Source: Thioclava sp. ES.031
GTDB lineage: Bacteria > Pseudomonadota > Alphaproteobacteria > Rhodobacterales > Rhodobacteraceae
Length of the DNA: 64,000 nt
Direction of reading: 5' to 3'
Assembly: GCF_002563775.1 (NCBI RefSeq)
Contig: NZ_PDJO01000001.1
Span: 1,870,001-1,934,000 of the forward strand
Shown here in pieces: positions 29,186 to 43,393 of the stretch (position 1 is its first letter; every line of letters starts with the position of its first letter). A program made the translations under genes and the position numbers. The notes under the pieces are model-generated. The model was not told the origin of the DNA, did not search any database, and was given only the letters and a program-made list of their open reading frames with translations.

Positions 29186-32100
29186 ATGCGCTTTTTCGAC
29201 AATCTCAAACTAGGCTTGAAACTACCACTGATGCTGGTGGCGATCGCGATGGTCGCCCTGACGATCATGGGGATTTCGGCCTATCGCACCGCCCACGGAT
29301 TGCTGGAAAGCGAAGGGACGCAGCGGCTCACACGAACGCTGGCCGCACGCGTCGCCATCGCGGAGAACTGGGCGCAGACACTTGCCTCCAATACCCGCAC
29401 GATCGCCGCCAATCCCGACACGGCCCGGGCGCTTTATGATTTCACCAAAAGCCTCAATCGGCTCGATCCTCCCGCGATCGAAAGTCTGCGGACCGGGGCC
29501 GCAGAGGCCGGGGCGTCCAAGGGAGAGATGAGCGGCCCGCTCCGGGACTACCACCTGCTACTGGACCGCTATGGCTCCGCCATTGATCAGATTTTGGCCG
29601 AGAATGGCCTGAACGATCTCTATCTGATCGATCGCGACGGTCGCATTGTTTATGCCGCGCGTGATCACAGCGCGATTGGTCACGCGCTTGCGGATGAACC
29701 GGCGGGGCTGATCGAGGCCGCGACCGCTGCGCTGGATTGGTTGAGCGCGCCGGCGGGAATGGTGGCGGCCGATACCGTCGCCGTTTCGCCCCCGCATTTC
29801 GAGAATGGCAAGGGCCGGCTCTTCGCCGCACGCCCCGTGCGAAGCGGAAATGGTCTGAAACTCGGTGCTGTGGTCTTGCGAAAGCCAATGACCGAGCTTG
29901 GGGCGATCATGGCCAACCCGCACGGCATCGGCGAGACCGGCGAAGGTTTCCTGATCGACGCGAAAGGACGGTTGATGAGCGATCTGCGCTTTCCGGACAG
30001 CGATCTGAAGCCGGGGGAGGTTTTGCCAGCGGCTACCGTGAGTGCTGTGGAACAGGCGCAGGAAGAGGTGCTGTCTTTGCAGGGGCATCCGGCGATTGAG
30101 AGAACCCAGAAGGTCACTCTTTTCGATCAGCCCTATTGGGCGGTCGTCGAGCAGGACCGTGCCGAGCTGTTCGGTCCTGCCACGTCGCTTGCCCGTGCGA
30201 TGCTTTTCAACGCGTCCTGGCTCGTTCTTCTGCTTGCGGCGCTTTCTGCCTGGATGGCGAGGTCCGTCTCCAACCCTCTCAAACTATTGGAAAAAACTAT
30301 CCGCGAGATCAGCGGAGGCAACTACACCAGTGATATCGTACAGGCCCGCCGCGGCGACGAGGTCGGGGCGATCGCCTCCGCTCTGAGCCATCTGCGCGAC
30401 GATCTCGAACGCGCCGAGGGGGGTCAGCGTGAAGCCACGCAACAAGGGGCCGCTTATGCCAACGCATCGGCCGCTCTCATGATCGTCGACCAAAACTTCC
30501 GCATCACGCATGTCAATCGCGCGCTCGTTGATCTTGTCGCATCGCGGCTCGGCGAGTTTCGTAGCGTCAGCCCCGACCTCGATCCCGAAGACCTTGTGGC
30601 CCGTTCGATGGACGATTTTCACGCGAAACAAAGCCATGCCCGTGGGTTGCTCGACGATCGCAGCAACTTGCCACTCCAAGTCGACATCAAAGTGGGTGAC
30701 GGCCGTTTTGGGGTCGACATCACCGATTTCGTCGATGCGGAGGGCAATCAGGCCGGTTTTGTGGTCGAATGGCGTGACGTGACAGAGCGTCGAATGAAAG
30801 ATGCGCTCATTGCCGCAATTGATCGCGGCCAGCTCGTTTGCGAAGCTAACCCCGCGGGCGTCGTGAGCCGAATGAACGCAAATTTCCAAGCGCTCCTCGG
30901 TCCACAGGCTCAAAGCCTGACAGGACAATCGCTTAAGGAATGGCTCAAGCCGGTAGATGGCGGTGATCCTTGGCCCGCGATTGCCGCGGGTGAGCCTGTG
31001 ACCGCGCGATTTTCGATGAGCGACCCGCAGGGCAATACCTATTTGCTTGATGGTGCGCTCAATCCGATCTCGGACAAGGCGGGCCGCCCGATGAAGATCG
31101 TGCTTATGGCAAATGACGTGACTGCCGCAGAAGCTGCGCTCGCTACAGCGCAAAACCGAAACCTCGCGATGCTCGAGGCGCAGAAATCGGTGGTCGAGGC
31201 GCTTCAGGTCGGCCTCGCGGCGCTCTCGCGCGGCGATCTGAGCCTGACGCTCGATATGGAGTTTTCCGGAGAATACGAAGCACTCCGAAACGACTTCAAT
31301 GCGGCGGCAAAAAATCTCGCCGCAGCAATCGAATCCGTGATCGAAAATGCCACCGCGATCGATACGGAGGCCCGCGAAATTGCATCTGCCTCGGATGACC
31401 TCAGCCGTAGAACCGAACAGCAGGCCGCCACGCTCGAAGAGACCGCTGCTGCCCTCGACGAACTCTCGTCTTCCGTCACAACCTCGGCGCAGGGCGTGGC
31501 CGAAGCGGATAGGGTGGTCTCCGAAGCCCGCACAAGCGCCGAAACCTCCGGCGAAGTGGTCAAGCAAGCCATTCAGGCGATGAGCGAAATCGAAACCAGC
31601 TCGCAACAGATTTCGAAGATTATCGGCGTGATCGATGAGATTGCCTTCCAGACGAACCTGCTCGCGCTCAACGCCGGCGTCGAAGCCGCGCGTGCAGGCG
31701 AGGCCGGGCGTGGCTTCGCCGTCGTGGCGTCGTAAGTACGCGCCCTTGCACAGCGCTCATCCGAAGCCGCTCGCGAGATCGACACTCTGATCACCGCATC
31801 AAGCGAACAGGTCACGCGCGGAGTGGGGCTCGTTGGCGAGACCGGCCGCGCGCTCGAAGGCATTCTCGGCGCAGTTGTCGATATTTCCGGGCGTGTCTCC
31901 GAAATTGCAGGAGGTGCGCGCGAACAGGCCCAAGGTCTCAAGGAGATCAACACCGCAGTCAATCAGCTTGACCAAGTCACGCAACAAAACGCCGCGATGT
32001 TCGAAGAAACCACCGCGGCCAGTCACGCTTTGACTACGAATGCGACCTCCCTGCGTGACATTACTGCTCAGTTCAAAGTCGGCACCGAAGTGATCGTGTC

Positions 32101-32245
32101 TCCCGCGTACGCACACTCCACGTTACCGCCAGGCCAAGAAGAGCCTTGGCCGCAAGAAGAGTCCGTCGAAAATCTTCCCCGCGTGGTCGGGGAATCCGCA
32201 TCGCGCAGCACCACATATCGCGCCGAAGATTGGGAAGAGTTTTGA
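29186..32245 (+). pseudogene. Methyl-accepting chemotaxis protein, interrupted by an ochre codon
   Basis: The full frame would be 1019 residues. ATG 29186 follows AGGA. Domains: a membrane segment (about 10-35), a periplasmic sensor of Cache type, a second segment (about 338-358), HAMP, two PAS-like segments, a second HAMP-like helix, and the MCP signalling hairpin. At the hairpin tip the sequence reads [17 protein letters not shown], then TAA at 31733-31735, then VRALAQRSSEAAREID in the same frame to 32245. The usual residue there is Glu, so a single GAA to TAA change is enough. The truncated product (849 residues) loses the descending helix and the C-terminal DWEEF, a CheR/CheB-docking type pentapeptide. 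It leads the mcp-cheB-cheD arm. Confidence 0.88.
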
Positions 32246-32265
32246 GGTCGCACGAAGGAAACGCG

Positions 32266-40914: not shown

Positions 40915-40952
40915 CGCCCTGAGCGCCGCCTCTCGCCGCCTGGTCAATGTCG

Positions 40953-41216
40953 TCAGTTCTTTCCCAGCAGATCCTTCAGAACCACGTTGTCGAGCATGGT
41001 GTCGGCCAACAGACGTTTGAGCTTGGCGTTTTCGTCTTCGAGCGCCTTCAGCCTGGCCGCCTCGGAGACCTCCATGCCACCATACTTGGCCTTGAACTTG
41101 TAAAAGGTCGCCGGGCTGAGGCCATGCCTGCGGCACACATCAGCTGTCGGCATGCCTGCCTCCTGCTCCTTGATCATCCCGATAATCTGCGCCTCGGTGA
41201 AACGGCTTTTTCTCAT
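40953..41216 (-). CDS. IS407-group OrfA
   Basis: An 87-residue helix-turn-helix protein: [20 protein letters not shown], then [20 protein letters not shown], followed by a leucine-zipper helix [20 protein letters not shown]. Typical OrfA of IS407-like elements. It starts just inside the right 65-base terminal repeat, whose AAGGAG serves as its ribosome site. Confidence 0.93.
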
Positions 41217-43393
41217 TCGTCTGCTCCTTCAGAGTTGGCGCAGACTCTACACTACGTTGAGGGATCCCGCGGGGGGCAGGTCATTGCTGCAATCCCTTGA
41301 TGACGACCTGGCGCTGCTCGAGAATTGAATCGACCACGAGAGCAGAGCGGGCACCATCTTCCTGAGCGGTGAGCAGAACGACGTCGCCGCTGTAGGATCG
41401 CTTCGGTCCGCGATATCCGAGTTCGGCACCGAGGTCGAAAAGAGGGACGAAGGCGCCCCGCAGATGGATGACATTCGTCGATGGACCGAGTGCGCGGATG
41501 TCTTCGCTCGTGAGTGTCGCGGTTTCGAGGATCGAGGAGAGCGGGACCACGAGGGTTTCGCCTGCGACATTGACGACCATTCCGTCTAGAACGGCAAGAG
41601 TCAGTGGCAGGGAAATCGAGAAGCAGCTGCCCTTGCCGGGGTCAGAGGTGATCGAAATCCGGCCACCTAGAGATTGGATCGAGCTTTTCACGACATCCAT
41701 GCCGACGCCGCGGCCCGAGAGCGCGGAGACCTGGTCAGCGGTAGAGAAACCGGGCAGGAAGAGAAGGTTGTCGATTTCGCTGTCGGAAAGCTGGGCATCC
41801 GGGGCGATAAGGCCTTTTTCGATGGCTTTCTCGAAGACCTTCTTGCGGTCGATGCCACCACCGTCATCGCTGACTTCGATCACGACGCGACCGGAGCGAT
41901 GGTGGGCGGAGAGGGTGACGATTCCTTCGCGCGGTTTGCCAGCGCCTTCGCGCATCTCGGGGGATTCGAGGCCATGATCGACGGCGTTGCGGATCATATG
42001 GGTGAGCGGATCGGCGAGGCGCTCGATGACGGTCTTGTCGACCTCGGTGGTCTCACCTTCGGTTTTGAGCCGGACGTCCTTGCCGATCGCCGAAGAGGCT
42101 TCGCGCACGATCCGGGCCATCCGCTGGAACAGCGGTTTGACCGGCTGAGCACGGATCATCATCACGCTGTCCTGAATGTCACGGGTCAGCATCATGAAGG
42201 CTTCGAGCCCGGTGTTCACGGCGGAGTTGGGCGGCAGACCGGCTTCGGCCACAGATTGGGCAAGCATGGCTTGGTTGATTACCAATTCGCCTACGAGGTT
42301 CACCAAGCGGTCGATGCGCTCGATATCGACGCGCACGGTGGCGCCGGGCTCTGCAGCGGGGGCGGTGTTGGATGCCGCAGGCTGAGCGGCGGAGGGCTTC
42401 GCGGTCTCGGCTTGTTGCTCGGTCGGGGCCGGGTCAGGCGTGCGCGCGGGAGCTTCGGTTGCGATCTTCGCTATATCATCGGTTGGAGGCGGCGCGGGAT
42501 TGATGGAACCGGGGCCATCCACTGCCGCCGCGGGCTCAAATTTTTCATCTTCGTCAGTGTCGCCGGACGGTTCGCTTTCTAATTCGGGCAGCTCCGGGAG
42601 GGGCGTTTCAGATGAAGCGGGGATCGCCGAAATGTCGATCTGGCAGACGTCTTCGACGAATTCGAACACTTCCCGGATTTCTTCTTCTGTCACATCCCCC
42701 GTGATCTGGACGGTCCAGCTCAGATGGTTCTCCTCCGGGTCGAGCGTATCGAGTGGCGGGACCGTCGATGCGTCGGTCGCGATCGAGATCTCCGCGATCT
42801 CGGCGAGGGCGCGGAGAAGCTGCAGCGGCTCGTTGCCCGAAGTATAGAGCGCGCCGTCCGGGCGGAACTGCAGGGTGAAGCCGGTCGGGGACGCGTCTTC
42901 TGGCGTGAAATCGAAGTCGAGGTCGAGCGCGAGGCCCATCGGCTGGAAATCTGCCGTCTCCACCTCGTCTTCCGCATCAGCCGCATGTGCAGCCCCCCGG
43001 TCCCCCAAAAGCGCCTCAAGCGCCTGAAGGCACTCCTCGGCGGTCTCGGGTTCGGGAGCCCCTTCGCGCGCGGCACGGATTTCGTCTGCAAGCAGGTCAG
43101 CCGCCTGGAAGAAGAGCTTGACCGCCTCAGGCGTCAGATCGAGCCTGCCGGCGCGTAGCTCGTCCAGCACGGTTTCGAACCGATGCGCAAAAGCGACCAG
43201 CGCATCGAGGCCGAAGGCGCCTGCGCCGCCCTTGATCGAATGAACCGCCCGAAAGACGACATTGATCGTCTCGCCATCTTCCGCGCCCTCGTCGAGGTCG
43301 GAGAGCGCGTCTTGCAGGCTTTCGAGCAGCTCTTCACATTCGATGAAGAAGGATGCTTTGATTTCTGCCATCGGGTCGGACATGTCGCGCTCC

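Follow-up and report, generated by a model that had tools for sequence, protein, structure and literature searches.

The chemotaxis (che) cluster of Thioclava sp. ES.031 raises the question of why four of its genes are broken in a strain whose flagellar cluster is not. The cluster spans positions 29186-44040 of the window, by which we mean the whole stretch of 64,000 nucleotides analyzed (contig positions 1870001-1934000), in a genome assembled as a single contig of 4,019,144 bases. Our preferred answer, to which we give a probability of roughly 0.6 and which is limited to the contig of this one strain, is that ES.031 recently lost its sole chemotaxis signaling pathway under relaxed selection while keeping its flagellar genes. 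The comparison set comprised 16 genomes, namely, ES.031 and 15 relatives that include T. electrotropha ElOx9, T. sediminum TAW-CT134, Thioclava sp. JE_KL1, T. pacifica, and T. nitratireducens (presumably strain 25B10_4). The che stretches were compared in 14 of the 15 relatives, leaving out one genome (G015) in which che lies on a 3.2-kb contig, and the lesion sites were compared with four (T. electrotropha, T. sediminum, JE_KL1, and T. nitratireducens). Names of insertion sequence (IS) families were taken from plasmid annotations.

Four lesions in one che cluster

The cluster consists of a plus-strand group (mcp, cheB, and cheD) and a convergent minus-strand group (a STAS gene, cheY1, cheA, cheW, cheR, cheY2, and a cheT-like gene) (Table 1). 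An initial annotation, made from the window alone, had described four broken genes here and had listed cheB, cheR, cheW, and one cheY as intact. All four lesions were found where it had placed them, and open frames and domain matches agree with its list of intact genes, the intact cheY being cheY1. Domain matches to CheW, CheR, and CheB are all present in the cluster, and besides the four lesions its frames are open throughout.

The chemoreceptor gene mcp, whose T. electrotropha orthologue contains MCPsignal, HAMP, and PAS domains, is interrupted by a TAA at codon 850 (of 1020, counting the terminal stop), with open frame on either side. It is the only one of 74 MCPsignal matches across the 16 genomes to contain a stop, and the two other receptors of ES.031 are open. 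The cheD gene is split by an IS66 element that has no further match anywhere in the ES.031 genome and is flanked by the 8-bp repeat TGTGAATG; deleting the element and one repeat restores 173 codons. This gene is single-copy and unsplit in all 15 relatives and split in ES.031 only. In cheY2, an IS3-family element with six genome copies (one truncated) lies between TGG repeats, and its deletion with one TGG restores 128 codons.

The insertion in cheA is composite. A 1,253-bp element (40031-41283), which we take to be of the IS407 type, is preceded by a 65-bp inverted copy of its own right end (39966-40030), and a 4-bp TTGC repeat encloses the whole 1,318 bp. The junction with the inverted copy occurs once in the 16 genomes, in ES.031, and no second instance was found there that could mark a donor of the 1,318-bp unit. 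From this arrangement we infer that the whole insert transposed together, with a copy of the same end on each side, a structure that may have arisen when one element copy inserted into another. Deleting the insert and one TTGC restores a frame of 745 codons from 43383, of which the lesion removes the last 45. The match to the P5 (CheW-like) domain breaks off at position 104 of the 138 in the profile. Of the 41 CheW-domain matches in the 16 genomes, that of ES.031 cheA alone contains a stop in its frame.

All three elements thus show both the target-site repeat and the empty site in relatives of a simple IS insertion, the empty sites aligning without gaps in all four relatives compared. The target duplications of 8, 3, and 4 bases that had been reported are present as TGTGAATG, TGG, and TTGC, recomputed excision gave the same codon counts as those proposed on paper (173, 128, and 745), and syntenic clusters are intact in T. 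electrotropha and T. sediminum. The loss also appears to be as recent as had been suggested: frames are open apart from the four lesions, and both the IS3 element of cheY2 and the cheA-type element have copies 99 to 100% identical elsewhere in the ES.031 genome.

Loss of the sole signaling system and retention of flagellar genes

A second che system that could serve as a backup was rejected for the ES.031 contig, where the CheW domain occurs in only two places, cheW and the broken cheA, both in this cluster. Intact second copies of the broken genes, which the initial annotation had named as evidence against its reading, are therefore not a way out within the contig, and cheD is present only as its two pieces.

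The flagellar genes present a different picture. Open reading frames (ORFs) at about 429 to 461 kb of ES.031 are collinear with those of T. electrotropha, with protein identities of 85 to 100%. At 423 to 429 kb, MotB is 95% identical to that of T. electrotropha, some small ORFs have lower identity or no match, and the exceptions include a 93-amino-acid ORF at 61% identity with three stops, probably not a gene, and a 254-amino-acid ORF without a T. electrotropha match. In the reverse direction, 54 of 58 T. electrotropha ORFs match the ES.031 flagellar region; the single broken match lies, like all four unmatched ORFs, beyond the flagellar cluster. A Pfam scan assigned 9 of 10 proteins from the region (FliF, FliG, FliM, FlhA, FlhB, a FliI-type ATPase, a hook/rod protein, MotB, and flagellin), the tenth falling in no family. 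Decay of the whole motility system was accordingly rejected as an explanation; because the flagellar cluster shows no break, the loss appears to be specific to signaling, and the two checks proposed at the outset, for flagellar genes and for a second che operon, came out as an unbroken flagellar cluster and no second system in the contig. If the two regions were equally unconstrained, the probability that all four lesions would fall in the 9.2 kb of che and none in the 38 kb of the flagellar region would be 0.0014. Among relatives, one species description records T. sediminum, a close relative, as motile via a polar flagellum, T. nitratireducens MCCC 1A07302 (= 25B10_4) as motile, and T. marina (marinus) as nonmotile (PMC5508018).

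Relaxed selection is the best-supported reading of the che lesions, and a plausible course of events can be outlined. Receptor control of CheA needs the P5 domain for coupling, and since the insertion cuts off the end of P5, receptor-controlled kinase output would be lost; we regard this as the decisive lesion. The same insertion probably has polar effects on cheW, cheR, cheY2, and the cheT-like gene, and besides cheA the lesions break cheD, cheY2, and one receptor out of three. Whichever null lesion came first may have freed the rest of the cluster to gather more, while the flagellar genes would have stayed under purifying selection. The predicted phenotype is a flagellated, nonchemotactic cell that swims without directed bias.

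Table 1. Features of the che cluster of Thioclava sp. ES.031 and the basis on which each was called (window positions)
Feature	Position	Strand	Basis
mcp, chemoreceptor gene, broken	29186..32245	+	ATG at 29186; TAA-interrupted frame
Ochre codon TAA within MCP signaling domain of mcp	31733..31735	+	frame reading
Divergent segment, mcp 3' part to cheW (approximate borders)	30250..39600		250-base identity bins; fourfold-site divergence
cheB, intact, 354 amino acids, both domains	32266..33330	+	open frame; Pfam on T. electrotropha orthologue
cheD 5' piece	33327..33537	+	frame; cheD search
8-bp target repeat TGTGAATG	left copy 33530..33537, right copy 36041-36048		junction sequence
IS66 element, 2,503 bp, in cheD	33538..36040		annotation match; flanking repeat
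cheD 3' piece, starts with right TGTGAATG copy	36041..36359	+	frame; cheD search
cheT-like gene, intact, 120 amino acids	36464..36826	-	alignment; profile search
cheY2 3' piece, with TGG repeat at 36996-36998	36826..36998	-	frame; junction
IS3-family element, 1,273 bp, in cheY2	36999..38271		annotation match; TGG either side
cheY2 5' piece, with TGG repeat at 38272-38274	38272..38488	-	frame; junction
cheR, intact	38508..39353	-	CheR domain match
cheW, intact	39350..39820	-	CheW domain match
cheA 3' piece (end of P5/CheW-like domain), including TTGC repeat copy 39962-39965	39824..39965	-	frame; domain match
IS3-family element in cheA, 1,318 bp overall	39966..41283		annotation match; TTGC either side
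cheA 5' piece, including TTGC repeat copy 41284-41287	41284..43383	-	frame; domain match
cheY1, intact	43394..43759	-	open frame; Pfam
STAS-domain gene, intact	43750..44040	-	open frame; Pfam

Clustering of insertions and alternative explanations

We counted 12 transposons in the ES.031 genome, restricting the count to rve-type and IS66 families (11 rve-type above the Pfam cut-off, with one weak rve match left out, and the single IS66), and 3 of the 12 lie within 7.7 kb. The simulated probability of such a cluster at any locus is 0.0023 under uniform insertion and 0.016 if 30% of 10-kb blocks are tolerant, and analytic values range from 0.0035 to 0.055. In a window that was itself picked for the pattern, these values are only suggestive of clustering beyond chance. 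They weigh against relaxed selection as a full account: three insertions of three element types, out of only 12 transposons counted, are more than simple neutral accumulation would give at one locus, which hints that selection, a hotspot, or a locally high tolerance was involved. In addition, motA was not located in ES.031, and motility is therefore not certain.

The relatives bear on each of these alternatives. Lesions were found in the che stretches of 2 of the 14 relatives. In JE_KL1, IS66 ends interrupt mcp; they have an 8-bp repeat of their own, GAATCAGC, and were read from two contig ends (the end of L129 and the start of L029) between which the element is unassembled. In T. nitratireducens, cheR is frameshifted at a run of nine Cs (stretch L030, about 9870), and since full-length CheR proteins elsewhere are 97 to 100% identical to both pieces, one of them named T. 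nitratireducens, the frameshift is either strain specific or a sequencing error. This genome also has a second che set, with the CheW domain at three more places and a cheR-like gene (C1, about 2518007-2521940); extra sets also occur in one other of the 16 genomes (G006), and ES.031 has no second set. Between cheD and the cheT-like gene, T. electrotropha, T. sediminum, and JE_KL1 carry decayed transposase-like sequence (L027 7316-8579, L028 6368-8379, and L029 2032-4089, longer in two of them) that is absent from this interval in ES.031 and T. nitratireducens. Six of the 14 stretches have cheA without mcp, cheB, and cheD beside it, and in those genomes cheD and receptors are open elsewhere. 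Among the che genes that the compared stretches contain, those of the ten more distant relatives show no break.

The first alternative is that chemotactic control was selected against, with successive lesions in the receptor, CheD, CheY2, and CheA each cutting kinase output and each being favored, for example if swimming straight or attaching differently to surfaces is an advantage in the niche or in culture. The lesions do strike different nodes of the pathway, the transposons are more tightly clustered than chance predicts (any-locus probability of 0.002 to 0.06), and two close relatives have lesions of their own, in JE_KL1 mcp and T. nitratireducens cheR. Once cheA was null, however, further lesions should bring no gain; the T. 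nitratireducens frameshift may be a homopolymer error in a genome with a second CheW-domain set, and the cluster is intact in T. electrotropha and T. sediminum. We consider this explanation possible but unlikely. Where the initial annotation had offered loss of selection or selection against the pathway, recent loss is well supported, and selection against it is neither shown nor excluded.

An insertion hotspot, in which the che locus would draw mobile elements regardless of selection, could draw on the IS66 ends with their own repeat in JE_KL1 mcp and on the decayed transposase in three relatives, but the element types and repeats in ES.031 differ and share no common target sequence, and the che genes are unbroken in the compared stretches of the ten more distant relatives, so that we give this idea little credence. 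The weaker proposal made at the outset, that the locus tolerates or attracts insertions, gains from the same observations in relatives and is held back by clustering statistics that are moderate. Equally improbable is an artefact of culture or sequencing, with lesions arising in laboratory passage or a stop codon produced by a base-call error: two of the three elements look recently mobile, with copies 99 to 100% identical elsewhere in the genome, and the window holds a second nonsense codon in a manC-like gene, but the insertions have proper repeats, the assembly is one contig, and misassembly would hardly yield three separate insertions.

A divergent mosaic segment covers most of the lesions

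The initial annotation treated the cluster as a unit and did not note the divergent mosaic segment that takes in most of it and is not visible from the window sequence alone. The segment runs from about 30.25 kb, in the middle of mcp, to about 39.5 to 39.75 kb, in cheW. Within it the identity of ES.031 to T. electrotropha and T. sediminum is about 78% (69 to 86% in 250-base bins), compared with about 95% over most of the flanking sequence, and JE_KL1 shows the same drop for the part covered by its contig, which starts inside mcp. Fourfold-site divergence between ES.031 and T. electrotropha is 259/501 (0.52) in the core and 107/667 and 59/589 (0.10 to 0.16) in the flanks, and synonymous divergence is 0.96 to 1.70 in the core, 0.04 to 0.28 in most flanking genes, and 0.37 to 0.51 in the last third of cheA. 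Relaxed constraint alone was rejected as the cause, since synonymous divergence is itself raised in the core. In the rest of the window, 1-kb bins are mostly 90 to 98% identical to T. electrotropha, with shorter dips to 83 to 88% at 4001-7000 and 15001-17000, and the region around the flagellar cluster also has short dips to 80 to 87%.

The core is likewise raised between T. electrotropha and T. nitratireducens, at 264/509 (0.52) versus 230/634 and 155/539 (0.29 to 0.36) in the flanks, which indicates that the locus is in general more variable than its surroundings. Three core versions, those of ES.031, of the T. electrotropha/T. sediminum/JE_KL1 group, and of T. nitratireducens, are about equidistant at 0.52 to 0.54 at fourfold sites, near saturation (pairs ES.031-T. 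electrotropha, ES.031-T. nitratireducens, and T. electrotropha-T. nitratireducens). T. electrotropha and T. sediminum are closer to each other in the core (22/584, 0.038) than in the flanks (67/544 and 63/595, 0.11 to 0.12; p = 2.7e-8), an effect that is weak or absent in pairs with JE_KL1 (T. electrotropha-JE_KL1, p = 0.17; T. sediminum-JE_KL1, p = 0.046, right flank only). The flank trees place ES.031 with T. electrotropha and T. sediminum on the left (support 100/99, without JE_KL1) and with these and JE_KL1 on the right (100/100). The core tree lacks this grouping, but support for the branch that competes with it is weak (79/87), and the flank grouping is not rejected under the approximately unbiased (AU) test (p = 0.07).

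The sharp step in fourfold-site divergence between core and flanks is as expected of homologous allele replacement, which likely caused the divergence of the segment; we assign neither the recipient lineage nor the donor. No donor was found: among the matches listed, the best CheR match in a species-level collection (80 loci) was 79%, and, the strain's own genome aside, none in the protein database exceeded 82% for CheB or 83% for CheR (best 120 of 8000).

A wider scheme may be imagined in which chemotaxis is repeatedly lost and regained in this group of Thioclava, the che core being often broken and then repaired by import of a whole-core allele through homologous recombination, with flagella kept in the off-phases. 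Of the clade's five genomes, three have a core broken by insertions, a stop, or slippage, and one of these breaks may be a sequencing error; the scheme is also in line with the three equidistant core versions and with the likeness of the T. electrotropha and T. sediminum cores, as of a recently spread allele. It remains speculative, and we think it improbable as stated.

Comparison with known systems

Clusters of che genes broken by IS elements are already known, and the closest precedent found is che2 of Shewanella oneidensis MR-1, in which a chemoreceptor gene and cheA of one locus are interrupted by mobile elements; according to that report, the disruption is strain specific and the S. decolorationis locus is undisrupted (PMC9855816). 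As described there, MR-1 che2 is redundant beside Che3, whereas the ES.031 cluster is the sole system found, and ES.031 differs further in that four genes are broken, three by different element types and one by a stop codon, with most of the cluster in a divergent segment. Natural Xanthomonas strains of an otherwise motile group have likewise lost motility functions, but there it is the flagellum that was lost, whereas ES.031 keeps flagellar genes and loses signaling genes (PMC3826837). Another report deals with gain and not loss (PMC12016497). In the literature titles and abstract openings listed we found no report of the present case, and a phrase search for che pseudogenes returned nothing.

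In gene content the cluster resembles that of Sinorhizobium and Agrobacterium, which, as described, contains cheA, two cheY genes, cheR, cheB, cheD, and a cheT-like gene with a D-x-x-x-Q motif, the motif given for CheT (PMC12654446). ES.031 differs in its two convergent gene groups and in a cheT-like protein that scores far below the NCBIfam cut-off. This protein belongs to no Pfam family and is present in the che stretch of all 14 relatives, and D56 and Q60 of the motif are invariant in all 15 aligned sequences. Against the CheT profile NF047973 it scores 13.9 bits (E = 0.042), below the curated cut-off of 200 bits, and 14 of the 15 aligned members match the profile at E values up to 1 (best, 1.9e-5). 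A profile search of the PDB found no relative, the best match being a designed coiled coil, whose E value of 1.5e-5 is a sum across several weakly matching stretches. Judged by motif, profile, and position, it is probably a distant CheT/CheZ-like CheY phosphatase.

ES.031 offers a natural case in which steering has apparently been lost and flagellar genes kept, with intact-cluster relatives available, among them T. electrotropha ElOx9, for which a transposon study has been published (PMC9226611). The strain could be used to test what chemotaxis is worth to such a marine bacterium and whether broken clusters can be rescued by allele import.

Elsewhere in the window, a manC-like gene (mannose-1-phosphate guanylyltransferase/isomerase; 190-1632, plus strand) has a TAG at 250-252 where T. 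electrotropha encodes tryptophan. The T. electrotropha orthologue matches TIGR01479, a 63% paralogue elsewhere in ES.031 is open, and the nonsense codon lies a few kilobases from a polysaccharide-export-like gene.

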